From IMG/VR virus record IMGVR_UViG_3300020438_000240, positions 1 through 25,859 of that record: a stretch of DNA of 25,859 nt; one strand, given 5' to 3'. Position 1 is the first letter of the stretch. Every line of letters starts with the position of its first letter. Under the pieces are notes generated by a model. The model worked only from the letters and a program-made list of their open reading frames with translations, did no database searches and was not told where the DNA came from. This DNA comes from a virus. Shown here piece after piece: positions 2,062-25,837 of this stretch. Both the position numbers and the translations under genes were made by a program.

Positions 2062-3417
2062 TTAAGTGTTAAAAAATTCTTTTTGAAGGTGTTTTAATTC
2101 AAAACTATCAATATTAGAATGGGGGTTTACTGGGTATGAAGGTTGGACTAATTCATCATCTTCATTATAATCATGAACCTCAAAATGTCCTGTTGATGTA
2201 TCTGCTTTGACTCCAAATGTTAATCCATCCATTCCATATCTATTTTTCATTACGTGAAACCTACCGGTGCCATTAATTTTATCTTTTGCCTTTCTAGACA
2301 GTGATAAACAAAAATCTGTAATCATTATTTTATCATAAGATCCAGCTGCTTTGTCTCCTTCAATGACATCGTCTTTTGCACCCGCCCTATTTACTTGAGA
2401 AACTGACCAAATTGGTAAATTTAATTCTCGAGCAAGGCCTTTAGTACTTGTATAAATATCATCAATTTCATATTTGCGATCAACATTCTTTCTTTTTGAT
2501 GATAATAAATCAACATAATCTATTAAAATCAAATCAGGTTTAACATCTTGGCTTATACATTTTCTAATGTGAGATTCTACTGTGTGGATACTAGCTCTTC
2601 CAGTAGGAAATTCTTTTATTACTAACTTACCCTCTATTTGGGGTATAATTTCTTCTACTTCTTTTTTATGTTTAGTAATATGGTTAACTGGAATTTTAGT
2701 AAAAAATGAATCATATCTTAACCCAACATAATCCTCTCCAAGTTCTAAGGTATAGTGTAAAACATTATATCCCATTTTAACGGCATGTCCCCCTAAAGCA
2801 ACAAGCGACCAAGACTTTCCACCCCCAGGATTACCAAATATTAAACCAAAATCACCACCTCCTAATCCACCTTGTAACAATTCATTAATCCTTTCCCAAG
2901 GGGTTGGTATGCATATTCTATTGTCTTTTCTATATCTAGTTTCTATATCTAAATTATACTCATGTCCAATATTTTTATCTTGACCTGATTTTAAAGCATC
3001 CTCAATCATTATTTTAATTGAATCATAATCTCCGGCCTTTAATAAATCTACAGAAGATAATAATGCTTTTTTTAATTGTTGGTTTTTACAAAATGCTGAA
3101 AATTCTTCTTGGACATATTTTAAATCATCATCACTTGCTATATAAGCTTCTCTAAGTTGTTCTTTAATTGATAATTGTAAAACTTCATTTTCAATTTTTT
3201 TAACTTCAACCTTTAATATGTCTAATGAGGGTGTTGTATGATATTTGTCATAATAAGCAAGTATTTCTTTTACAATCCACCTATGTGCTTGGTTGTTAAA
3301 ATCTTCTTCGTTTAATATATCATAAATGTTGGTTAAAAAATCTTTATGTGTTAATAAAGAGGATAAAACCTTTATTTGAAAATCTTTTCCGTAATCTTGA
3401 ATACTTTTTAATGTCAT
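2062..3417 (-). CDS. Replicative DNA helicase, DnaB/T4 gp41 type
   Basis: Hexameric 5'-3' helicase that unwinds DNA at the phage replication fork. The 451-aa protein has an N-terminal helical part (about 1-150) like DnaB, then a RecA-type motor. Walker A is GNPGGGKS at 195-202, Walker B is LILIDY ending with Asp300, SVSQVNR near 338-344 is the sensor/H3 motif, and KNRYG at 391-395 is a probable arginine-finger region. The start overlaps the exonuclease stop as ATGA (3414-3417), so translation of the two is probably coupled. No primase domain is fused, and no primase gene is seen in the window. Family assignment is firm; gp41 rather than host-type DnaB is inferred from the T4-like neighbours. 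Confidence 0.93.
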   Translation of the reverse strand: MTLKSIQDYGKDFQIKVLSSLLTHKDFLTNIYDILNEEDFNNQAHRWIVKEILAYYDKYHTTPSLDILKVEVKKIENEVLQLSIKEQLREAYIASDDDLKYVQEEFSAFCKNQQLKKALLSSVDLLKAGDYDSIKIMIEDALKSGQDKNIGHEYNLDIETRYRKDNRICIPTPWERINELLQGGLGGGDFGLIFGNPGGGKSWSLVALGGHAVKMGYNVLHYTLELGEDYVGLRYDSFFTKIPVNHITKHKKEVEEIIPQIEGKLVIKEFPTGRASIHTVESHIRKCISQDVKPDLILIDYVDLLSSKRKNVDRKYEIDDIYTSTKGLARELNLPIWSVSQVNRAGAKDDVIEGDKAAGSYDKIMITDFCLSLSRKAKDKINGTGRFHVMKNRYGMDGLTFGVKADTSTGHFEVHDYNEDDELVQPSYPVNPHSNIDSFELKHLQKEFFNT

Positions 3418-4439
3418 TTATTTAATTTTTCAAAATTTTCTTTTAACCAATAATCTAAATTTCTAATCATTCCACCTAACTTGTCTTCGTTATACATTGC
3501 AATGAACTGATCGGGAATATAATTTAAATTTTTAGTTTTTACAACTTCATCTAAATATTTTTTATCATTTTCTCCAATCATAGGATTAGATAAATCCATT
3601 ATTTTATAATTTTTTTCTAATTCATCTACCCCTTGTATTACTCGGGCGTACACAAGATGATCTTTAAACTTTTGTTCACATATATCAAATACATCATCAA
3701 ATGTTAAGACCCTTTCAGTTAATTCCGGGAATTTTTTAAATATACCTTTCTCACCTAACCCTTTAATTCCTTTAATTTTATCAGAACTATCTCCTAAAAG
3801 TGTTTTATATAGAATAAAGTTTTGAGCAGGCATTTTATATTTTTCTCTCATAACCTCTTCAGTATAATACTTTTTTTCCATTGGTCTATAAACTATAACG
3901 TTTTGGTTTACCAATTGAAGAAAATCTTTATCGCTAGATATTATGAAAAGTTTGTCGTTGGGTTGATTTGGCAATTTACCACACAGATATGCTATGATAT
4001 CATCCGCCTCTACCTTATCTAAAATTAATGTTTTTACTGGGAGGGTTTTTAAGTATTGGATTACTCTTACTATTTGGTCTACTTTAGAATCGTGTTCATC
4101 TACTAAACTATCAAATACTTCCCAATTTGTAACTCTTTGCTCGTTTCTACCTGATTTATATTCAGGTACTAAGTTTTTTCTGTTTACAGTAGAGGAAGCA
4201 CCATCAAACACAACATAAACTTTATCAGGTTGTGTTTGCCTAATCATTGCTCCTAATGAACGAAAAAAACCACCTAAACCCCCTATATGAATACCATCAG
4301 GATTAACCATATTCATCATTGCAAAGTTTCTAAAAAATAAATTTAACCCATCTATTAACAAAGTTCTAGTACCTTCAGACGAGCTGGCATCATTCCCCTC
4401 AGTATCATTAAGGAGTTTAAGTAAATTTTTCTTATCCAT
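3414..4439 (-). CDS. 5'-3' exonuclease / flap endonuclease (T4 RNase H-like, FEN family)
   Basis: Removes RNA primers and 5' flaps during lagging-strand synthesis. The 341-aa protein shows the family's acidic metal ligands in order: LLIDGLN with Asp30, VVFDG with Asp79, VEADDIIAY with Glu144/Asp146/Asp147, SSDKDF with Asp170/Asp172, and GDSSDKI with Asp217/Asp220. The last is followed by GIKGLGEKG, the helix-hairpin-helix (H3TH) that grips DNA. The first about 24 residues form a Ser/Glu-rich extension without family similarity. It is a stand-alone nuclease, as in T4, rather than the N-terminal domain of a DNA polymerase I. It ends in a 4-nt overlap with the helicase gene and starts 4 nt after the uvsX stop. 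Confidence 0.93.
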   Translation of the reverse strand: MDKKNLLKLLNDTEGNDASSSEGTRTLLIDGLNLFFRNFAMMNMVNPDGIHIGGLGGFFRSLGAMIRQTQPDKVYVVFDGASSTVNRKNLVPEYKSGRNEQRVTNWEVFDSLVDEHDSKVDQIVRVIQYLKTLPVKTLILDKVEADDIIAYLCGKLPNQPNDKLFIISSDKDFLQLVNQNVIVYRPMEKKYYTEEVMREKYKMPAQNFILYKTLLGDSSDKIKGIKGLGEKGIFKKFPELTERVLTFDDVFDICEQKFKDHLVYARVIQGVDELEKNYKIMDLSNPMIGENDKKYLDEVVKTKNLNYIPDQFIAMYNEDKLGGMIRNLDYWLKENFEKLNK

Positions 4440-4443
4440 AATC

Positions 4444-5520
4444 TTATTCTGGTTCTTCTATGTAAGAGGTAATATCATTATACGCTTGTTCCTCTTCTAC
4501 TATTTGAAAATCACCCCCACCTAAAATGTCTTTCCATGCTTGAGAGTTATCATTTTTATACTCTTTAAGTTCTTTATCATTATCGTTGATAAAACCATGA
4601 GGTGTCATTACAATTCTACCCCTGGTGGTAACTCCATTAATGTGATTTTTATCAATCTGTAAATTAACACGTTTCGCAAATTCTACCTGTTTACCATCTT
4701 TAATTGCTTTAATTTTAGATGTTCCTGCGTTTGAAATATTACCAAATGTAACTACAAACGTTGAATCAAACCACATTGCAAATCCACCTTTATTCATTAA
4801 TTTAGGTTTACCCATTGGTGATTCTGCTTTTGCTGTCCATACTTTATTAATACAAACTAACGTGTTAGTGTATTCAGATGATTCTTTTCTTGATAATGTA
4901 ATTCTTTGATTAACACTATTTCCAAATTGAGTAGACATTGCACCCGCATTCCATTCATTGTTGTTTTTATTTGATTTAACAGACATTTCACAAGGCACTG
5001 ATCCTATTGAATCCCATAAGAATACTAAATCGTATGGTAAATTCCCTCGTTTTTGTTCATCTATTAAATCCAAAATAAATTTAGCAACATCTTCAATTGT
5101 GTGAATAGTTTCTCTATCAGCATAGATAAATTCTCCTTCATAATTTACGATTTCTCCAGTTTCTTTATCTACTACTTCATCTACCTGTAGACCCATTTGT
5201 TGAGCATGTTCCCAATTCCATTTCATCTCAGTAATAATAAAAACAGGTAGTATCCCTCTTTTTTGAGCGGATACTGCTGTTTCTAGTAGTGCTGTTGTTT
5301 TACCTGTATCTGAGTGGCCTCTAAGTAAAACAATATGTCCTTGAGGTATGCCTGGAATTGATGTTACATCTTGAAATGCTTGTGAAAGTGGAATCCAAGT
5401 TTGTTCTTTAAATTTAACATTTTGTTTAAGTCCCTTCTTTTCTTTAAAGGAATTTAAATTAAACTTAGATTTTATTTCTTTGGAGACTGCCTCCGATAGC
5501 GATTTTTTAATTCTTGGCAT
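4444..5520 (-). CDS. uvsX: UvsX-type RecA-family recombinase
   Basis: RecA-fold strand-exchange protein that forms filaments on ssDNA and drives recombination-dependent replication and repair in T4-like phages. In this 358-aa protein, Walker A is GHSDTGKT at 68-75, a catalytic Glu lies in FIITEMKW near residue 98, and Walker B is DLVFLWDS ending at Asp170-Ser171. It is followed by a probable DNA-binding L1/L2 region with AGAMSTQFGNSVNQRI near 192-207. The C-terminal tail is acidic, as in RecA and UvsX, where it modulates DNA access. It lies between gp32 and the exonuclease, the sort of replication/recombination cluster in which UvsX and gp32 are partners. UvsX is preferred over bacterial RecA on context and on the divergent Walker A. 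Confidence 0.92.
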   Translation of the reverse strand: MPRIKKSLSEAVSKEIKSKFNLNSFKEKKGLKQNVKFKEQTWIPLSQAFQDVTSIPGIPQGHIVLLRGHSDTGKTTALLETAVSAQKRGILPVFIITEMKWNWEHAQQMGLQVDEVVDKETGEIVNYEGEFIYADRETIHTIEDVAKFILDLIDEQKRGNLPYDLVFLWDSIGSVPCEMSVKSNKNNNEWNAGAMSTQFGNSVNQRITLSRKESSEYTNTLVCINKVWTAKAESPMGKPKLMNKGGFAMWFDSTFVVTFGNISNAGTSKIKAIKDGKQVEFAKRVNLQIDKNHINGVTTRGRIVMTPHGFINDNDKELKEYKNDNSQAWKDILGGGDFQIVEEEQAYNDITSYIEEPE

Positions 5521-5531
5521 ATAACTTTAAT

Positions 5532-6350
5532 TTAAAATGGTAAATCATCTTTCTCTTCAAACAAATCATCAAATTCTTCTACTTTTGATGCTACTGGTTT
5601 GCCTTGAGTTGCTAAACTGAACTTTTTGTCTTCTTTTACTACTGTAGAATCATCATTAGAATCAGCTATATCATCTTCTTCTCCATCAGTTAAGAAACTT
5701 TGAAGTTCTTCTTTTAGTTTATCATAAGTGTATTTAAATCTTTCTTCTAATAAAAGTGGTTGTTTTTCCAACCATGTCTCTACTGAAGAAGCATTTTCAC
5801 TTAATGGAGTTTGCTTTGGTTTTGGTCTTAAACTAAGAGCAAATCCTGGTCTATCCTGTACCTTAGAAGCATTAACTACAAAATCAAATCCTTCTACTAC
5901 ATCTGTAAAATCACCATAATCTTCATCATCAGCAATTGATAACAATTCCATATAGATAGTTTTACTAAATTCAAACAAACGAACACCTTTTTCTTCTTCC
6001 CCTCTAACAATAACGGGAGCAAATACTCTCATTTTAGGGTCAAGTTTTTTAGATAATTTCCAATTGTCTGAATCTGATGATTCTCTTAATTTCTTAGTGA
6101 AATCTACTATGGGATCTTTTTCTCCCCAGTTTGTTAGGGCTACTATTGGAAACTTTCCAATTCCATAGTGCATGAAAACCTCCTGAAATGGGTTTTCTTT
6201 GTTTAGTTTTGAAGGGACAAACCTGATTTGGTATTTACCTTCTTGTTTTGGTTTCCAATAAACCAAAGTGTAATCCTTTTTTTCTCTTGATTTGGGTTTG
6301 TTGTCTTGATTCAAAGACTCCAAACGGTTTTTGATTGCGTTTAAATCCAT
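5532..6350 (-). CDS. gp32-like single-stranded DNA-binding protein with a bacterial SSB-type tip
   Basis: Coats ssDNA at the fork and during recombination. The 272-aa sequence has the gp32 layout: a basic N-terminus (about 1-30), an OB-fold core beginning with DYTLVYWKPKQEGKYQIRFVP and including FMHYGIGKFPIVAL (the first stretch is split by no gap and is read here only as a landmark), and a long acidic tail from about residue 215. The Cys/His zinc module of T4 gp32 is absent: there are no cysteines. The tail ends EEKDDLPF, which resembles the C-terminal tip of bacterial SSB rather than the T4 gp32 end. It is the only replication gene with a sizeable gap upstream (58 nt), so it may have its own promoter. 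The start codon overlaps the AT-rich string TATAAATATG. Confidence 0.88.
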   Translation of the reverse strand: MDLNAIKNRLESLNQDNKPKSREKKDYTLVYWKPKQEGKYQIRFVPSKLNKENPFQEVFMHYGIGKFPIVALTNWGEKDPIVDFTKKLRESSDSDNWKLSKKLDPKMRVFAPVIVRGEEEKGVRLFEFSKTIYMELLSIADDEDYGDFTDVVEGFDFVVNASKVQDRPGFALSLRPKPKQTPLSENASSVETWLEKQPLLLEERFKYTYDKLKEELQSFLTDGEEDDIADSNDDSTVVKEDKKFSLATQGKPVASKVEEFDDLFEEKDDLPF

Positions 6351-6408: not shown

Positions 6409-6879
6409 TTATACTTCAATTATTTTGTGAATTTTTGTATTTAGCTGTTTTAATTCATTATGTTGTGTTAGCAAAATACAATTTCTGTAATGTTTCCAAT
6501 TAATAGGAAATTTTGTATCAACTACTCCGCCATTAAGTTTTTTAATTAACTCATTTAGAGCATTTATTGTATATAAAGTGTTTGTTTCTTTTTTCCTATG
6601 AACTAAAATAGTGTTTTCTGGGATTGCTGTAATATTTCCTTGATCAACATTATAAGTTAGAACATATTCGTTATTACTCTTAATATGAAGAGCAAACATC
6701 TTGTTATACATTATAGAGTATTTAGAAGAGAGATATTTTATTTTTGCATCCATCTCTTCTAATCTTACAAAAGTGCAAAATAATTTATTATTCAAGTCGG
6801 TAAAATTTATAAAGTTATCATTGTCATATTCTACTTTATAAATATCTGAAATTTCTTCAAAAATCATAGTTGTTTCCAT
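6409..6879 (-). CDS. Unknown protein coupled to the DNA polymerase gene
   Basis: I do not recognise this 156-aa protein. It is Asn/Lys/Ile-rich and probably mixed alpha/beta. A helix around ALNELIKKLNGG (about 107-118) precedes FPINWKHYRNCILLT (about 123-137). There is no signal peptide, membrane segment or nucleotide-binding motif. Its start lies 23 nt inside the polymerase gene, or 11 nt inside if the second Met at codon 5 (position 6867) is used, so the two are almost surely translationally coupled. It sits between the polymerase and gp32, so a replication role such as an accessory subunit is a reasonable guess, but nothing in the sequence proves it. Confidence 0.75.
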   Translation of the reverse strand: METTMIFEEISDIYKVEYDNDNFINFTDLNNKLFCTFVRLEEMDAKIKYLSSKYSIMYNKMFALHIKSNNEYVLTYNVDQGNITAIPENTILVHRKKETNTLYTINALNELIKKLNGGVVDTKFPINWKHYRNCILLTQHNELKQLNTKIHKIIEV

Positions 6880-8113
6880 TACTAATTTTTATGTTTAGTT
6901 GGTGTGATTTAAACACCTCCTTTATTTGGTTTAGCACACTTTCTTCAGTTTTATCGTAATCAAACAAAAACGCATCGTAAGTGTACAAAACTAAATTTGT
7001 TTCTGTTTTTTTTAATATTTTTATTATATCCCACAATATACAAACATTTTTTGAGGTTTCCAAATTTTGTAATAGGTAATTAAATAATTTTTGGGGATTC
7101 ATGTTATCTAACTTAGAATTTTCAAATTTATGTTCTGAAATTGGGCATTTAATGAAACCCTTATTTTGAAAATCACTCCATAAACTATTTATAAATTCTT
7201 GGATTTTTTGAAAAAACTCAAGATCCCTATACTGTTTAAATACACCACCATAAAGCTGTTTGAACGTGAGCTCTTTAGCTTTTTTATAATCCACATTATA
7301 CATTTTAGCAAAGGAAGCATGAATATCATCAGTATCGAACTTATAATTAACCAACATAGCGGCAAGAGTAGGATGATAAGCAGAGATATCAATTTCAATA
7401 AATTCATCATTACTTGGTATAAATGCTTTCCTACATCCATTTTCTTTATTTAAAGCCGCAAAGTTAATTCCTCCAAACCTATTTGATGGTCTAGTTGTTG
7501 TGGTTCTGTAATTATATTGGGTGTATACTTTATCTCCAAAATCTTTATTAAAATGTTCTTGAAATAATTCTGAATTGACTTGGATACCTTTTCTTTCAAT
7601 AGCATTAAACACCAATGGCACTCTATTATTATAAAATGGGTTAACAGGTTCATTAAAATATTGTTTTAAATTATTATAATTTTTCTCACAGGTTTCATAA
7701 TGTTTAACAATAGGAACAATCTTGTTAATATCCAATTTATCTTTGTTTCTTTGTTCTAAAATTTGGTGGGCTCTTGTCGTTTCCATCTCATATTCTGGGG
7801 AAGTTAAAGAGATGTCAATTAGATTTTTATGCAAGTAAAAATGTAAAAATTCCTTTTTACCCCAAACGTACAACGTATCATAGCTATTAATTAATTCCGC
7901 GATATACTCGCTGTTTAACGGCATAGATTCACTGTGGTTTATTGAGATAATGTATCCTTTACTTGCATTTATTGGACGCAAATATATAAGGGATACTTCT
8001 GTGGTTACAGGATGTGTTTTATAGGAATTAGGTATAATCTCTATATAAGCTTCTTTATAACCATTATTGTAAAAACCCTTTAATTGTTCAGTGTTTTCTA
8101 TTAGCCAAAACAT
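6857..8113 (-). CDS. Minimal family A DNA polymerase, apparently without thumb and with a degenerate exonuclease region
   Basis: Predicted template-directed DNA polymerase, only 418 aa. The palm and fingers follow E. coli Pol I in order: the RTTTTRPSN element at 203-211, motif A EIDISAYHPTLAAML with catalytic Asp242, DDIH near 262-265, motif B K280-x3-F284-x3-Y288-G289, the N345/Q349 pair (same spacing as N845/Q849), and motif C YTYDAFLF with catalytic Asp380. Motif C reads Y-D-A rather than H-D-E. Between IERKG (172-176) and VYTQY (196-200) only about 20 residues remain where Pol I has about 110, so the thumb is essentially gone. Residues 1-125 resemble a worn 3'-5' exonuclease fold without a clear set of acidic metal ligands. 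The reading frame is intact. It lies at the upstream end of the replication block. Confidence 0.85.
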   Translation of the reverse strand: MFWLIENTEQLKGFYNNGYKEAYIEIIPNSYKTHPVTTEVSLIYLRPINASKGYIISINHSESMPLNSEYIAELINSYDTLYVWGKKEFLHFYLHKNLIDISLTSPEYEMETTRAHQILEQRNKDKLDINKIVPIVKHYETCEKNYNNLKQYFNEPVNPFYNNRVPLVFNAIERKGIQVNSELFQEHFNKDFGDKVYTQYNYRTTTTRPSNRFGGINFAALNKENGCRKAFIPSNDEFIEIDISAYHPTLAAMLVNYKFDTDDIHASFAKMYNVDYKKAKELTFKQLYGGVFKQYRDLEFFQKIQEFINSLWSDFQNKGFIKCPISEHKFENSKLDNMNPQKLFNYLLQNLETSKNVCILWDIIKILKKTETNLVLYTYDAFLFDYDKTEESVLNQIKEVFKSHQLNIKISNGNNYDF

Positions 8114-8786: not shown

Positions 8787-11700
8787 TTAAGAAGAAATAA
8801 AATTAGTTATAGTGTTAAATACTGAGGTTGCTTTTTTTGTTGCTTGATTAATTATTGAATTATCAGGATCTATATTGGCATGAGTATGAGCATTAGACCC
8901 TTTTCCATGAAATTTTACCCCAGTAAATTCTGTGTTTTTACATGCTTGAATAACTAAATTATTTAATGGGGTTGATTTCTTATCTCTTATATCAATGGCT
9001 AATCCCCTAGTATGGGTTGTAGTTGAAGGTGTTGTTTTACCTGTAGGGTATTTCATTCTGTCTGCAGCCTGAGATTTTGTTTCTACACCTACAGGTTTAG
9101 AACCTGCGGTTTTTCCTTGATGATATAAATCATTACCTGCGGTTATTGTAATAGGTAGGAGTGAAGTATATTCATCCTTTCCTAGTTCAATGTGAAGGTT
9201 TGATAAAGCATTTAAAAGGTCTTCAGTTATATCTCCCCCATTACCTAGTTGCCCCCCTGGATTTGTATCAGTATTATCTTTTATTATAATTCTTACTTTT
9301 AAGTTTTTACTTTTCCATTCAGATAAGAAATTAATAAATTTGGTAACATTTGAATTTGGGTTGTTATTTCCTTTTCTAACTACAAATTCTTTAGTGTATT
9401 TATAGGAATTTTTATATATATCTTTTTGTTTTTTACTATCAGTTGAAATAATAATTGGTCTTGAGTTATTAACATTAACTGTTGTTCTGCCAGGAACACT
9501 GTTTACAGTACCGGCAGTAGTAACTAAATTAGAGAGGGAAATATCTATGTTTTGTAAGTCTTTTGTAGACAATAGATTAGTTACTGTAGCTATACTATCT
9601 AAACTTGTAACCCATTGGTTATTTTCTAATTTATGTCTTACCCCAGTTAAAACAAATTCCATTGAATCCTTATAATTAGAAGCTAAAAATTTAGTATTAA
9701 CATTAATTTTATTGTATATTTTCATTCCTTCAATACCATCCATATCTAATTGAAGATTAAAAGGTAAAAATCCTGTTTGGCCCGAGGATTTTTTATCTGC
9801 TTCTTTAGAATTAGCTGCTTGGGCTTGAAGGTATCTATAAAATTCAGAAACAACATTAATATTAGCTGAAATATTATCAGGAGATAATAAAAGGGGAATA
9901 CCCGCAATGGGGTAATCAAGTTTAAGATCTCTTTCATTTTCATCTCCAAGTATACCTTCTAAAGTAAAATCTCCTTTAAATATGTTATCCTTTTTATTGG
10001 CATCATCCTGAATACTTGTGATAGTATCATCTTCTATTATATCATCTGGTAAAAGAAAACCTGAAAATATAAAGGAATTAACTCCTTCTTTATTAAATAA
10101 ATCAACATAATTATTTTCAATTACTTGATATTCAGATAGAGCTTCTTCATCATCAGAATTTGCTGGGGTTGGTAAAGAAGGCGATACTATTTCTTGTTTA
10201 AACCTATCAACAATTCCAGTATTCCATTTAGAAAAAGCTGTAGCATCTTCTCCAACAACATAACCATTAGCTGTAGATCCTACTGTTATCATAGTAGCAT
10301 ATTCAGGTGTAATTTCAGTTGTTATACCTACATTATGAATAAAGTTTGAAGTATTATTATCATTATTATAACCATATAAATCAAACATATATGATTCTGA
10401 ACCCGTAGGGAAAATATTAGATGGTAAACTTGATTTTCCTGGGAGGGGGGTTTGGTCTACAATCCTAATAATGTTTTCTTCTTCATATATTTTAGGTTCT
10501 AATTTATTAACTCCCCCTAAAGATCTATTTATACCATTACAAACCTTTCTTAAAAAATCTATCAAAGCTATGTTTCCATTTTGATCTGTTTCATTTAAAA
10601 GTTGAATAATAAATGAAAAATTTAAATAAACACTCATAATATTTCCATAAGTGTTTTCTCCAGAGTTTGGTGTATATTGAAATTTTCTTAACCCAGTAAA
10701 TAATTTTTGAAAGATAGGTTCACCCGAGGGGTTTGAAGTTACAACACCTTCATTATTAATAACACATACTGATGGATCTAAAGAAACCATATTAGGTATA
10801 AAATACATTAAATTAGCATCAGGGTTACTATCTAATCTAATTTGGGGGGAGTTACTTGGTTTTATAGTTGGTAAAATAAGTTTATTTAATAAAGTTAATA
10901 AACTCTCAAAAGTTAAAAACCATTGAAGGTCTGAATTGTTAAAATTTATTTGGGCAAAGTTTTTATTAAACTTTGGAAAAAGTTTTTCATACTTATTAGG
11001 GGGAGGAACAATTCTACCTACAGGAATGTTTTTACTTTTCCTAAGTTTTTGAGTTTGGATATAAATTGTTTCTTTTATTGATTTTGTTAATATTTGTTCA
11101 TCTCCATCCTCGTTTATTGTTGTTCTATAAGAAGAAACTCTAATATTGTAGAAAAAATTTGAAATTGCATTTTTATTTCTATTAGAATCAATTATTCCCT
11201 CACCTTCAAGCTCACCTTCTATTTCTTCTACCCCTTCATTTGAATCTAAATTTGCTGTATTAATTTTCAAAGATTCAATTACATCACCTAAACTTAAAAC
11301 ATCTAAAGTTATACTATAAGAGCCATCAGGGTTAAAAGTCCATTTAAAGTTTGCAATTTTTCCAAATAATCCCCCATAATTTCCAGCTTTAGCTTCTCTT
11401 TCTTTTTCAATTAAATCTAGTAAAGTTAAATAGGGTTTGTTATCTATAGAAGTTCTGAAGAATTCTTTTTCTATAAGAGTAGGTCCCATTGTAGTATAAT
11501 CCCCATTATTATCAAAATAATTACTATCTCCATATTCAAGTAAAATAGTATAACCTAATCTTAGGTATAAGGCATCAATGATATCAAATTGTTGTTTATT
11601 GTGGGCTTTTAACTGTATAGTAGCTTTTTTAATAGAACCTCTATCTAAATTAGTTATATTAACACTTTCTATTCCTGGCATAGGAACTTGACCAAATTCA

Positions 11701-12167
11701 TTTCCTCCTAAACCATAAGCACCATCAGAACCAATTCCTGATCTTTGGGAAGGGAAAGAAAATGAGGAGTTATTATCTAATGCTCCTTGACCTAAATCAG
11801 ATTCTATAACTTCTTGTCTAGTGAATTGACCTCTAAAAGCCTCAGTAATATCATCTATGTCTTTATTAAATGAAGTTTTATTTATACCCCTTTCTAAAGT
11901 ACTTACACCATTAAATAAAACAAAATTTCTAGCTAAACCTGTTCCTTTAAGATTATCAGCAGTAGTTCCAGAACCAAAAATCATTTCTAATCTTGATTGT
12001 TCCATAGAAGTACCTGAAGCTAACTTAACCCAAGCATTTCTACCATTTAAATATTGAATCTGTTCAGGAGTTCTATTTTGAGTTTTTCCAGAACCATGAA
12101 CTTCTTGCCTAACATTTATTTGTTTGGCCACATAATCCTTAAATGGTTCCCCTACGATATTTCCCAT
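8787..12167 (-). CDS. Giant baseplate hub protein with C-terminal M15-type peptidoglycan peptidase domain
   Basis: At 1126 aa this is the largest gene here. Residues about 165-330 (IESVNITNLDRG, YTILLEYGDS, FKWTFNPDGSYSITLDVLS) and about 790-860 (SMEFVLTGVRHKLENNQW) look like parts of contractile-tail hub proteins of the gp27/gpD kind. The second is the pattern of the hub's terminal beta domain. After a Ser/Asn/Thr-rich linker, the end carries an M15 metallopeptidase signature: THTRGLAIDI with His1052 and Asp1059 in H-x6-D spacing, and AHTHANID with His1094/His1096 supplying the last zinc ligand. Such a domain would cut peptide cross-links of peptidoglycan during DNA entry, a job done by lysozyme in T4 gp5. 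The gene lies between the LysM/gp53-like gene and the 215-aa gene with 2-3 nt gaps. The hub assignment is likely; the peptidase fold is well supported by motif but not by structure. Confidence 0.82.
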   Translation of the reverse strand: MGNIVGEPFKDYVAKQINVRQEVHGSGKTQNRTPEQIQYLNGRNAWVKLASGTSMEQSRLEMIFGSGTTADNLKGTGLARNFVLFNGVSTLERGINKTSFNKDIDDITEAFRGQFTRQEVIESDLGQGALDNNSSFSFPSQRSGIGSDGAYGLGGNEFGQVPMPGIESVNITNLDRGSIKKATIQLKAHNKQQFDIIDALYLRLGYTILLEYGDSNYFDNNGDYTTMGPTLIEKEFFRTSIDNKPYLTLLDLIEKEREAKAGNYGGLFGKIANFKWTFNPDGSYSITLDVLSLGDVIESLKINTANLDSNEGVEEIEGELEGEGIIDSNRNKNAISNFFYNIRVSSYRTTINEDGDEQILTKSIKETIYIQTQKLRKSKNIPVGRIVPPPNKYEKLFPKFNKNFAQINFNNSDLQWFLTFESLLTLLNKLILPTIKPSNSPQIRLDSNPDANLMYFIPNMVSLDPSVCVINNEGVVTSNPSGEPIFQKLFTGLRKFQYTPNSGENTYGNIMSVYLNFSFIIQLLNETDQNGNIALIDFLRKVCNGINRSLGGVNKLEPKIYEEENIIRIVDQTPLPGKSSLPSNIFPTGSESYMFDLYGYNNDNNTSNFIHNVGITTEITPEYATMITVGSTANGYVVGEDATAFSKWNTGIVDRFKQEIVSPSLPTPANSDDEEALSEYQVIENNYVDLFNKEGVNSFIFSGFLLPDDIIEDDTITSIQDDANKKDNIFKGDFTLEGILGDENERDLKLDYPIAGIPLLLSPDNISANINVVSEFYRYLQAQAANSKEADKKSSGQTGFLPFNLQLDMDGIEGMKIYNKINVNTKFLASNYKDSMEFVLTGVRHKLENNQWVTSLDSIATVTNLLSTKDLQNIDISLSNLVTTAGTVNSVPGRTTVNVNNSRPIIISTDSKKQKDIYKNSYKYTKEFVVRKGNNNPNSNVTKFINFLSEWKSKNLKVRIIIKDNTDTNPGGQLGNGGDITEDLLNALSNLHIELGKDEYTSLLPITITAGNDLYHQGKTAGSKPVGVETKSQAADRMKYPTGKTTPSTTTHTRGLAIDIRDKKSTPLNNLVIQACKNTEFTGVKFHGKGSNAHTHANIDPDNSIINQATKKATSVFNTITNFISS

Positions 12168-21355: not shown

Positions 21356-21901
21356 TTATTGTTTGTTCATGCCTTGTCCTGGTGCTGTTGGGGGCATCAT
21401 CTCTGCTGGAGTACCTCCTGGTGCAGCACCTTTAGCTACCATTGATCCTGAAGCTGCTGCCTCAACGTATACTGGAGTGAAAGCTGCATCTACTGCTGCT
21501 ACATAATCACCAATTACACCGAAATCATCTGCAAAATCAACTCTTTCTTTTAAGTTAGAAGCTTCTTTTGCTGCTACAGCATTGGAAATTTCAGTTCCTT
21601 TTGCTGTTAAATCTGCTGCTAATTCATCAAACGAGTTGATTATCGCATCTGGGTTGTTAATTGCTTGGTTGTATGCATGATTAACTGCTGAAGATCCTGA
21701 ATTTTCTTCTTGAGTTTCAGCTGCTAAAGCTGCTGCTAAATCACTATCAATTTGAGTTCCTTCATCTGAAAGAAATAATTCTCTTCCTGCTTTAAACCTT
21801 GTGGTTGCAGTCATATAGTTTTCTTTTTGGAGTTTTAATGTCCCTGCAGTCTCATCTAACCTTGCTGTTACATTAGCTGCTAATTGTTGTATCTTGTTCA
21901 T
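21356..21901 (-). CDS. Alanine-rich helical protein (181 aa)
   Basis: No family recognised. It is predominantly helical and rich in Ala/Glu/Asp (SDLAAALAAETQEE, AVAAKEASNLKERVDFADDF). It ends in a Gly/Pro/Met-rich tail (GAAPGGTPAEMMPPTAPGQG) that is probably disordered. No cysteines or tryptophans. It is the last of three Ala-rich genes and is followed by a strong terminator, so the unit looks highly expressed and virion-related. An imperfect ATATTTTATAA element (21923-21933) lies 21 nt before the start. Function unknown; a whisker, neck or decoration role would fit but cannot be shown. Confidence 0.75.
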   Translation of the reverse strand: MNKIQQLAANVTARLDETAGTLKLQKENYMTATTRFKAGRELFLSDEGTQIDSDLAAALAAETQEENSGSSAVNHAYNQAINNPDAIINSFDELAADLTAKGTEISNAVAAKEASNLKERVDFADDFGVIGDYVAAVDAAFTPVYVEAAASGSMVAKGAAPGGTPAEMMPPTAPGQGMNKQ

Positions 21902-21922
21902 TTTCTTTTTTTTAAGATTGTT

Positions 21923-21933
21923 TTATAAAATAT
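21923..21933 (-). promoter_or_regulatory. Imperfect intergenic element ATATTTTATAA
   Basis: The 10-mer with one inserted T, 21 nt before the start of the 181-aa gene. Spacing is close to the 20-21 nt seen for the sheath, tail tube and 77-aa genes. Confidence 0.35.
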
Positions 21934-21956
21934 ATTTGTTAGTTGATGTTGCTTTC

Positions 21957-22376
21957 TTAAGCTACAGCTACACTATCATTTACTCCTATTACATCTACAA
22001 ACAAAGTATCTAATGCTGCTTCTTGTGTTGCTTTGAAGTTAATTAATGAAGCATCAAGTTCTGCATCTTTTGCTGCTACTGCTGCTGATGATTCTGAAAG
22101 TGAGTCTGCTTTTGCTGCATCAACGTTAGCTGTTAAATATGCTACTTTTGTATCGTTATCTGCTTGATATGCTGCAAATGAAGAATCAAAAGCTACTTTA
22201 TGAGCTTGTTCTGCATCATTTTTTGCAGTTACTAATGCTGCTTTTGCTGTAGCGTGAGCTGCTGCTTTTGCTGCAAAATCTGCATGAGCTTCACTAAGTT
22301 TTGCATCTCTATCTGCTTTAGCGGATACCATCAATCCTGCTACTGCGTCACTTATTTGTTTAATTTGTGTTGACAT
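21957..22376 (-). CDS. Alanine-rich coiled-coil protein (139 aa)
   Basis: About 39 of 139 residues are Ala, and there is no Pro, Cys or Trp. The body is one long predicted helix with heptad-like repeats (SEAHADFAAKAAAHATAKAA, then NDAEQAHKVAFDSSFAAYQ). Such a composition suits an elongated coiled-coil oligomer like a fibre, whisker or scaffold. The N-terminus has no signal peptide. No family is recognised. It sits in the middle of the Ala-rich trio. Its codons are GCT/GCA-rich, raising local GC above the neighbouring genes. The start is preceded by a pure A run rather than a Shine-Dalgarno sequence. Confidence 0.75.
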   Translation of the reverse strand: MSTQIKQISDAVAGLMVSAKADRDAKLSEAHADFAAKAAAHATAKAALVTAKNDAEQAHKVAFDSSFAAYQADNDTKVAYLTANVDAAKADSLSESSAAVAAKDAELDASLINFKATQEAALDTLFVDVIGVNDSVAVA

Positions 22377-22423
22377 TTTTTTTTAATTTTAAAATATTAA
22401 TAATTAGTTAATAGTAAATTTGA

Positions 22424-22852
22424 TTATTGAGCTGTGTAAGCTGAAGTAAATTCACTAGCAACACCTAAATCAGCTTTGTATTGTGCTTCTATAGCATCAT
22501 ACGATGAATTAGCTGCTGTAAGTACTGAGTTCCAATCAGAATATTGATCACCAAGTTCTGCTATAATTGCAAAAATTGTACCTGCACCTGCACTATCAGT
22601 ATCTACACCTACAATAGCAGAAATTTCTGCAAGAGTAGCGGCTCTTTCAGTTGTTAAATCAAGCATTCTTTGATCTGCTTTGTCTTCGTATCCTTCTTTA
22701 AGAGCAGTGAATTCAGTCATATCAGCAACCATAATGTACTGTGAATCTTCTGTTTTTGCTAATTCTTGAGCAGACCAAGCTGTTGAAATTCCAGCATCCA
22801 AAGCATCAAGATTTGTTTTTATGGCTCCCGCCATATTTCCTAAAAGTCCCAT
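22424..22852 (-). CDS. Alanine-rich helical protein (142 aa)
   Basis: The first gene of the Ala-rich trio. It has an N-terminal amphipathic start (MGLLGNMAGAIKTNLDALDA), then Ala/Thr/Asp-rich helices (KADQRMLDLTTERAATLAEI) and a Gly-containing turn (GVDTDSAGAGTIFAIIAELG). No family recognised. It has the longest upstream gap in the window (194 nt), holding an exact ATATTTATAA element 112 nt before the start and a hairpin between, which would leave a structured leader of about 100 nt. Probably a late structural protein; function unknown. Confidence 0.73.
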   Translation of the reverse strand: MGLLGNMAGAIKTNLDALDAGISTAWSAQELAKTEDSQYIMVADMTEFTALKEGYEDKADQRMLDLTTERAATLAEISAIVGVDTDSAGAGTIFAIIAELGDQYSDWNSVLTAANSSYDAIEAQYKADLGVASEFTSAYTAQ

Positions 22853-24404: not shown

Positions 24405-25178
24405 TTAAGTTAAACCAAATCTACCTTTTAAAGCATTATAATTATGTAAAACTTCAGTTGATGTTAAAGTTTTATCATAAATAGAAAAAGATGAAATGTT
24501 GCAATCTGTATAGTTTGATGTTGAACCCGGCCTAAACATAGATGCAAGACCAAAATTATTTAAACCACCTACGGATATTAGATTATTATTCCACCAATCT
24601 GAAGTAGAAGTATCATCTACTAAAGTTGAATTATAATCTACACCATTAATATAAATTTTTATGTTATATTTATTCCCAGTATTTCCGCCAGATTGTTTAG
24701 TGACGCAAACATTGGTCCATTCTCTTGGTAAAATAGATCCTGTGGTACATAATATTGTTCTATTAGCCCCCGATATACCTGCTAAAACATCAAAACTTCC
24801 TGGGAAAGTTAAACTACTTCCTCCTTCTGGGGAAGTGTAAGCTAATCCCATAACTGGGTAGGAACTTAAGTTAGGTGTAAAAGACCAAATATAACGTCTT
24901 ACTGATGTAACTTCAGGTTTTACCCAAACATTATAAGTAGAATCAGCATAGGAATCCATTAAAGGTTCTAAATTATTTATACTTATAAACTCATCTATCC
25001 CATCAAATTCCCAAACATTATTTAAAAACTTAACATCGTTTTCTAGGCTACCTGTTACTTCTTTATTTATTGAAAGTATGGTGTTTATAGTAGTACTACC
25101 ACTAATGTAAGATTCTTGATTAAAGGAATCTATACAATATATTAATCCATTAGTTACTATGTTAGGTCCAAAATTCAT
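24405..25178 (-). CDS. LamG/concanavalin-like lectin tail protein A
   Basis: A 257-aa protein made of a single LamG-3-type jelly roll: NVWEFDGIDEFISINNLE (about 66-83), then YNVWVKPEVTSVRRYIWSF, a WTNVCVTKQ strand near 160 and IKIYINGVDYNSTL. This fold is common in phage receptor-binding and fibre proteins and binds carbohydrate. The end reads EVLHNYNALKGRFGLT, nearly the same as in the next gene upstream. The start overlaps that gene's stop (TAATG), so the two are translated in series. It is probably part of a host-recognition set. Closest relative in the window: the 219-aa protein. Confidence 0.82.
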   Translation of the reverse strand: MNFGPNIVTNGLIYCIDSFNQESYISGSTTINTILSINKEVTGSLENDVKFLNNVWEFDGIDEFISINNLEPLMDSYADSTYNVWVKPEVTSVRRYIWSFTPNLSSYPVMGLAYTSPEGGSSLTFPGSFDVLAGISGANRTILCTTGSILPREWTNVCVTKQSGGNTGNKYNIKIYINGVDYNSTLVDDTSTSDWWNNNLISVGGLNNFGLASMFRPGSTSNYTDCNISSFSIYDKTLTSTEVLHNYNALKGRFGLT

Positions 25179-25837
25179 TATTCAAATCTTCCTTTTAATG
25201 CGTTGTAGTTGTGTAGAACTTCGTTTGATGATAAGGCACGGTTGTAGGTTTGAATAGGACCTATTTCGCCATCAAAATATTTACTACTTGTACCATTTCC
25301 TATAGTAGAATAAGTAGAATCCGTTACTGAGTTTGTTGTTGTAGATCCAAAAATTATAGCATTTCTATATACAGTTAAATTATTTGAAAAATCTCTTGTA
25401 ATAAAAATATTTTGCCATTCATCAGCTGCGAAATTATTTCCACTACTTTCGTTAAATGTTGTTACTGTACTTTTAAGTTTCACTTTAAATTGTGTTGTTG
25501 ATTTAATTTGTATCCAATTATTGCTAGAAGCTCCGTCACCTAAAAAATTTTGGTCACTTACATCATCTGGATTAACCCATACAGAAAGTGAAAATGCTGA
25601 TGGAAACGTTATGTCTGAAGATAAAAGTATATTATCATCACTACCATCTAGTTCCCATACTCCAAAATTTGAATTAGATAATAAAGGAGTAGTTGAAAGT
25701 GTACCTACATTATTTCCTATAGTATCAGTAGCAGTAGTACCAGTTTTAGGATAACATGCCCTATTAGCAGCATCCATATTGAATACTAGCCCATCCGCTA
25801 TTATATCTGTTGTTATGCTACCTACTCTTCCACTCAT
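25178..25837 (-). CDS. LamG/concanavalin-like lectin tail protein B
   Basis: A 219-aa LamG-3-type jelly roll: VWELDGSDDNILLSSDI, then FSLSVWVNPDDVSDQNFLGD, EWQNIFITRDFSNNLTVYRN and FDGEIGPIQTYNRALSSNEV. It ends LHNYNALKGRFE. It is a paralogue of the 257-aa protein with the same order of elements but different loops, as expected for duplicated adhesins under diversifying selection. It overlaps the stop of a further gene upstream by ATGA (25834-25837). Likely a receptor-binding or fibre-tip component; sugar ligand unknown. Confidence 0.82.
   Translation of the reverse strand: MSGRVGSITTDIIADGLVFNMDAANRACYPKTGTTATDTIGNNVGTLSTTPLLSNSNFGVWELDGSDDNILLSSDITFPSAFSLSVWVNPDDVSDQNFLGDGASSNNWIQIKSTTQFKVKLKSTVTTFNESSGNNFAADEWQNIFITRDFSNNLTVYRNAIIFGSTTTNSVTDSTYSTIGNGTSSKYFDGEIGPIQTYNRALSSNEVLHNYNALKGRFE

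Follow-up and report, generated by a model that had tools for sequence, protein, structure and literature searches.

The open reading frame at 8113..6857, on the minus strand of the window (a virus record of 25,859 bases with a GC content of 30.5%), starts with ATG and encodes a small family A DNA polymerase of 418 aa that belongs to the divPolA1 type by reading frame, homology, alignment and structure model. Almost none of its thumb is left and its fingers are shortened; both metal-binding aspartates are invariant among its relatives. The complete chain of argument, in which a proofreading-dead, thumbless accessory polymerase fills short gaps beside a separate replicase, stands at an even balance in our judgement; its separate parts are graded below where their evidence is given. 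The initial annotation had the coordinates right and missed the minus strand; the first frame of the plus strand of 6857-8113 contains many stops.

Gene neighbourhood and family

The gene content of the contig resembles that of a T4-like phage fragment. Genes for tail sheath, tail tube and the baseplate region lead up to the small polymerase ORF, which is followed by a companion ORF of 156 aa (6409..6879, with a 23-base overlap with the end of the polymerase gene), a gp32-like ssDNA-binding protein (5532..6350; PF08804, 8.4e-12), a UvsX/RecA-like recombinase (4444..5520; PF00154, phrog_97), a 5'-3' exonuclease of the Pol I N-terminal nuclease or FEN type (3414..4439; PF02739, 7e-33) and a DnaB-like replicative helicase (2062..3417; phrog_19, 2.8e-80), all on the minus strand, and by ribonucleotide reductase. 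The same neighbours recur among the relatives. At the 91 loci with enough flank, that is more than 7 kb downstream, the small polymerase is accompanied by gp32, UvsX and the 156-aa ORF in 91/91 cases each, by the 5' nuclease in 88/91 and by the helicase in 83/91.

A tblastn search of 50,697 phage records identified gp001 of Flavobacterium phage immuto (E 3e-73, 36.1% identity, 95% coverage), which is annotated as 'DNA polymerase family A'; these matches comprise four records, all from a single phage group. Further relatives came from Microcystis phage Mel-JY01 and from LR756508, a record of 484 kb. Scans of viral contigs with four queries confirmed 29, at least 596, 109 and 312 relatives, and a scan with the LR756508 protein returned zero contigs. 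The best 80 loci were kept from each of the scans with at least 596, 109 and 312 relatives, so that the sample leans toward the side of each query. The marine clade of the window shows 66-85% identity within the first scan and 36% to immuto. The carriers are large marine and freshwater phages, a common aquatic group. Bacterial and archaeal genomes contributed 8 loci. In 4/8 the title refers to Flavobacteriales, Winogradskyella or Flavobacteriaceae, which fits Bacteroidota hosts, with binning errors possible among these genome matches. We also note one relative (L338) on a short contig binned as the archaeon Candidatus Nitrosopelagicus, which stems either from misbinning or from an archaeal host.

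As a single protein, the window polymerase gave no Pfam match, PF00476 included, and no useful PDB sequence match, and the PHROG search returned a marginal 'DNA polymerase I' (E 0.039). PF00476 matches 21 of the 58 members of the family alignment (best 7.1e-13), and immuto gp001 scores 43.9 with a cut-off of 34.3. By these profile matches the family is placed in PF00476, from which the window member appears to have drifted below the reach of the profile. Comparison with 7 close relatives gave dN/dS values of 0.09-0.15, which are rough as dS is near or above 1; the median in 25 closer pairs is 0.063 and the maximum 0.196. Values this low point to strong purifying selection and hence to a polymerase gene in use.

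The divPolA1 proteins were described in 2024 from 14 phages including immuto (Virol J 2024;21:200; PMC11348598; preprint PMC11188092). In that paper, the palm residues are conserved, the thumb is truncated, the exonuclease is inactivated, and a regular PolA, PolB or PolC is present elsewhere in the genomes; the modelled proteins come from records MK892584 and LR796625 (PMC11348598). The window protein is almost certainly a further member. The features that define the likeness are a short PolA with palm residues, a truncated thumb, an inactive exonuclease, downstream replication genes and, in genomes of relatives, a second, regular polymerase; homology, the short thumb, the replaced acids and the downstream replication genes were all found in the window protein or its relatives. 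The barbavirus divPolA2 is similar in being a second, thumb-lacking PolA beside a PolB and differs, as the paper describes it, in an unrelated N-terminal domain and a variable gene neighbourhood (PMC11348598). The words 'steric gate' and 'ribonucleotide' do not occur in the main text of the paper, whose figures show key residues, and its divPolA1 section mentions neither a companion gene nor shortened fingers (PMC11348598). In a literature word search the term divPolA1 appeared in no paper beyond this one, and 'thumbless' combined with 'DNA polymerase' gave no match. What the present analysis adds is a nucleotide site remodelled in every aligned member, shortened fingers, the size and wide distribution of the family, co-occurring replicases that differ from clade to clade, and the companion gene. 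The steric-gate histidine is also added here, yet we do not claim it as unreported.

Rhodothermus phage RM378, a far-T4 phage that encodes the exonuclease-like part and the polymerase part in different genes, was considered as a split-PolA relative and rejected. Its p092 is an unrelated family B protein (PF00136, 1.2e-34), and PF00476 has no match in RM378.

Domain architecture and nucleotide site

An AlphaFold2 model was calculated from 58 window and viral-contig sequences, with a mean pLDDT of 92.3 and a pTM of 0.90. VIA-align superimposes residues 1-418 onto residues 300-874 of Bst Pol I (4f3o; Z 26.4, rmsd 3.7, 390/418 residues), Foldseek matches the Klenow structure 1kfd with a TM score of 0.76 by query length, and every one of the 50 top PDB fold matches listed is a DNA polymerase. 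Structure prediction and superposition on Pol I, which had been proposed as a check on the loss of the thumb, thus yield a full-length match to Bst Pol I from which the thumb is missing. The whole-chain fold, motifs A, B and C, R668 and Q849 are shared with the bacterial Pol I large fragment (Bst, Klenow, Taq). In contrast to the latter, the small polymerase has a thumb interval of 19 rather than 108 residues in the window protein, shorter fingers, the replacements E710H, R754Y and E883A/S, and no conserved exonuclease acids.

The thumb was measured as the interval between IERKG, starting at residue 172, and VYTQY, starting at residue 196. It comprises 19 residues (177-195; 7529..7585, minus strand), compared with 108 in an ordinary 906-aa PolA (L033 / MT836467; tblastn E 0.4) that served as the length yardstick and was kept out of the family. 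These counts agree with the earlier estimate of about 20 residues against about 110, and the model bears out that nearly all of the thumb is gone, since it retains one short helix, 181-188, in the thumb place. The interval is 12-30 residues long in 205/205 proteins (alignment columns 175-199); the short thumb is family-wide and no oddity of the window contig. The fingers are shortened as well: 55 residues instead of 77 separate the motif B Gly from N345, and 14 instead of 23 separate H265 from K280. The initial annotation, correct on the thumb, had missed both this shortening and the change at the steric gate described below.

Residues 1-130 (7724..8113, minus strand) adopt a fold resembling that of a 3'-5' exonuclease, in which the exonuclease acids are not conserved, as judged from the model and the structure alignment. 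The alignment of model residues 1-418 with residues 300-874 of Bst Pol I indicates that the N-terminus fills the place of the exonuclease domain. No conserved D-x-E is present on the first strand (21-28) of this region across the 205 proteins, in agreement with the decayed proofreading domain suggested at the outset; positions that are kept are H60 and K87 (both 205/205) and D100 (204/205). It had also been considered that a full thumb might be inserted elsewhere, for example within the N-terminal 130 residues. The model contains no such insertion, and a thumb supplied by residues 1-130 is ruled out by their occupying the exonuclease-domain place in the superposition.

The active site was compared in an alignment of 205 rows, consisting of the window protein and distinct proteins no shorter than 395 aa; the pool held 209 distinct proteins, five of which were shorter and left out. 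Aligned positions carry E. coli Pol I residue numbers as we assign them. The numbers D705, E710, D882 and E883 are also those used in a study of the Tt72 phage polymerase (PMC9324360). On the minus strand, motif A spans residues 242-250 (7364..7390), with D242 equivalent to D705 and H247 at the position of E710, both in 205/205. Motif B spans residues 276-289 (7247..7288), where Y276 replaces R754 and K280, F284 and Y288 correspond to K758, F762 and Y766, all in 205/205. The RTTTTR element occupies residues 203-208; N345 and Q349 (7067..7081), the counterparts of N845 and Q849 of Pol I, are kept in 204/205 and 205/205. Motif C is Y379-D380-A381 (6971..6979), with D380 in 205/205 and position 381 being A in 146 proteins and S in 59. 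Among the positions checked, those invariant throughout are D242, H247, Y276, K280, F284, Y288 and G289, together with T206, R208, P209, N211, N217, K342, Q349, E352, T353 and D380. The equivalents of D705, K758, F762, Y766, R668, Q849 and D882 are therefore retained in all 205 proteins, among which identity goes down to about 25%, and three residues of the nucleotide site are replaced in all 205, E710 by H, R754 by Y and E883 by A or S. The H734 equivalent varies (His 147, Glu 52, Asp 6).

These assignments draw on several sources. A weak HMM alignment to Taq Pol I 5o7t (E 0.079) places the motif A histidine opposite the Glu of DYSQIE and, at the same weak E value, YDA opposite HDE. Profile alignment to large phage PolA proteins, which is sensible in the polymerase part and not in the N-terminal part, supports the same motifs. 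With the model, both alignments uphold the earlier matching of motifs A, B and C, RTTTTR and N345/Q349 to Pol I. The Y-D-A of motif C, which had been singled out as altered, is present as described and is unremarkable by itself, since the active Tt72 PolA naturally has D-S at this place and immuto carries H-D-Q there in its large PolA. As reported in the Tt72 study, the S616A mutant has 76% activity, and 35% remains in E389A, which is altered at the position of E710 (PMC9324360). The resemblance to Tt72 lies in the non-acidic residue after the motif C Asp of an active enzyme; unlike the small polymerase, Tt72 has a thumb, proofreading and the steric-gate Glu (PMC9324360).

The three replaced nucleotide-site residues may signify low activity, another substrate or none. 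Another substrate is the basis of an unlikely alternative, in which the protein is a PolA-derived polymerase that accepts ribonucleotides and makes primers, extends primers or synthesizes short RNA. H247 at E710, A/S at E883 and Y at R754, each in 205/205, speak for it. T7-type RNA polymerases carry the motif H-D-S, which the Y-D-A/S of motif C resembles. In PolA, steric exclusion of ribonucleotides is attributed to E710 (PMC9324360). The divPolA1 authors brought up the idea of an RNA polymerase for the sister type divPolA2, not for divPolA1 (PMC11348598). A bulky His may nevertheless still act as the gate, the F762 and Y766 equivalents are kept, DNA polymerases make up all of the 50 best PDB matches listed, and the larger genomes have a primase of their own (see below). 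A more elaborate version, in which the small polymerase has remodelled its sugar gate, with Tyr in place of the phosphate-binding Arg, has exchanged the thumb for a partner encoded next door and synthesizes or elongates strands containing ribonucleotides within gaps of the phage DNA, seems improbable.

Nor do we expect a polymerase-shaped protein without catalytic use, serving as a structural or regulatory subunit of a replication or recombination complex. The lost thumb, the trimmed fingers, the three changed residues and the constant position of the gene in one block with gp32 and UvsX would all suit such a subunit, which would not need every one of the equivalents of the metal-binding Asp pair, Lys758, Tyr766, Arg668 and Gln849 that are present in 205/205; we regard it as improbable to a similar degree. 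The small polymerase is predicted, as the most likely case, to be catalytically competent.

Separate replicases and the proposed role

Genomes of relatives were searched for another replicative polymerase in 25 long records, comprising 22 contigs (62-177 kb, chosen by length from the loci in hand), immuto, Mel-JY01 and LR756508. As the initial annotation had asked whether such a polymerase exists, the answer is affirmative: a separate large PolA or PolB was found in 21/25. The 22 contigs divide into 8 with a large PolA, whose frames measure 778-796 aa, 10 with a PolB, 0 with both and 4 with neither; in these last (G024, G032, G040 and G041), all of them fragments, no large PolA, PolB or PolC was detected. 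All 3/3 phage records have a separate replicase, which in immuto is gp199, a PolA of 777 aa that includes an exonuclease and sequence of thumb length, a PolB in Mel-JY01, and PolB pieces plus a PolC in LR756508. Contigs found via immuto carry the large PolA, and those found via the family of the window or via Mel-JY01 carry PolB. A 93-kb contig (L024) whose small polymerase is 78% identical to that of the window contains a PolB. No other polymerase was found on the window contig, and as this is only a 25.9-kb fragment, the replicase of the window phage is inferred from its relatives.

A search for primases covered 18 of the 25 long records. DnaG-like primases were present in 11/18, and in 9/9 of those of at least 150 kb; several matches extend over stops at their ends, and the open frames are 310-344 aa long. 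With a separate large polymerase and a DnaG-like primase at hand, the small enzyme would not be the replicase and most likely not the primase. Among the special roles initially offered (repair, priming, or main replicase with partners), a repair or accessory function is now the likeliest; priming is disfavoured by the primases of the large records, and the main-replicase proposal is contradicted by the large PolA or PolB in 21/25.

That proposal, a main replicase made processive by partners, can draw on the position of the gene within the replication block and on the location of the large polymerase of immuto elsewhere in the genome, as the divPolA1 authors note (PMC11348598). The same text interprets the gene context of divPolA1 as a part played in replication and calls the functionality of regular polymerases 'less obvious' (PMC11348598). 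With proofreading and thumb both missing, and the second polymerases found, we consider it very unlikely. The small polymerase is very probably accessory to a separate replicase.

Far-T4-type phages would keep divPolA1, with its largely lost thumb and shortened fingers, as an accessory enzyme. The thumb provides processivity and a grip on the duplex; an enzyme without it would hold duplex DNA loosely and act distributively, adding only a few nucleotides each time it binds, which would fit it for filling short gaps. Such gaps could be left where the neighbouring 5' nuclease has removed a primer, or at recombination intermediates formed by UvsX, and partners, perhaps gp32 or the 156-aa companion, may tether the polymerase at the site. 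The gap-filling step is a guess from context and anatomy that we hold tentatively, at somewhat below even. The missing proofreading acids, the neighbouring UvsX and an active site that, as modelled without a thumb, is expected to be open would also suit a translesion polymerase acting on damaged phage DNA together with UvsX-dependent repair, which we consider quite unlikely.

The accessory polymerase shows how far DNA polymerase I can shrink with its active site still guarded by evolution. A natural small, thumbless PolA opens the role of the thumb in processivity and duplex grip to direct test, and the invariant change at the sugar gate allows a gap-filling DNA polymerase to be separated experimentally from one that accepts ribonucleotides.

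Two observations concern the large polymerases and their surroundings. PolB occurs as separate frames in the contigs of L126 (G023; frames 58817-59464 and 59731-60168), L121 (G025; one frame with an internal stop) and L204 (G028), and in LR756508 (W03), which suggests a split or interrupted gene. In immuto, the region 18607-40231 (L030) is annotated with a queuosine/7-deazaguanine pathway, with DpdA near the large PolA and GroEL/ES.

The companion ORF and other genes of the window

The 156-aa ORF is present in exactly the 6 of 50,697 phage records that contain a full-length small polymerase, in a search with two members of each family as queries. Relatives of gp32 were found in 42 records and, at that sensitivity, the upstream 215-aa ORF in one. 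As the six records represent only three lineages, the pairing is suggestive and not proof, and it makes the 156-aa protein a concrete candidate for a partner of the polymerase. Its conserved core lies around HRKKETNTLYTINALNELI. The companion model has a mean pLDDT of 81.5, with residues 1-17 and 19-23 below 50. A fold search gave no reliable match (best Foldseek E 0.16); the best VIA hits, origin-binding domains of polyomavirus T-antigen (Z 6.7, rmsd 2.9, 82 residues), are below the meaningful level. The companion was also considered as a stand-in thumb; its model shows an alpha/beta fold and not a helical thumb.

Three further observations were made on the minus strand of the window. The baseplate-region protein of 1126 aa at 8787-12167 has a C-terminal stretch with HTRGLAIDI and HTH, an end that we take to be similar to VanY/M15-type peptidases; the immuto gene in the matching region is annotated as a carboxypeptidase. 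Three small Ala/Asp-rich proteins, perhaps coiled-coil, lie in a row at 21356-22852. The adjacent proteins at 24405-25178 and 25178-25837 both have a concanavalin A-like (Laminin_G_3) domain and identical C-terminal words, and are probably tandem duplicates that act as glycan binders of the tail fibre.
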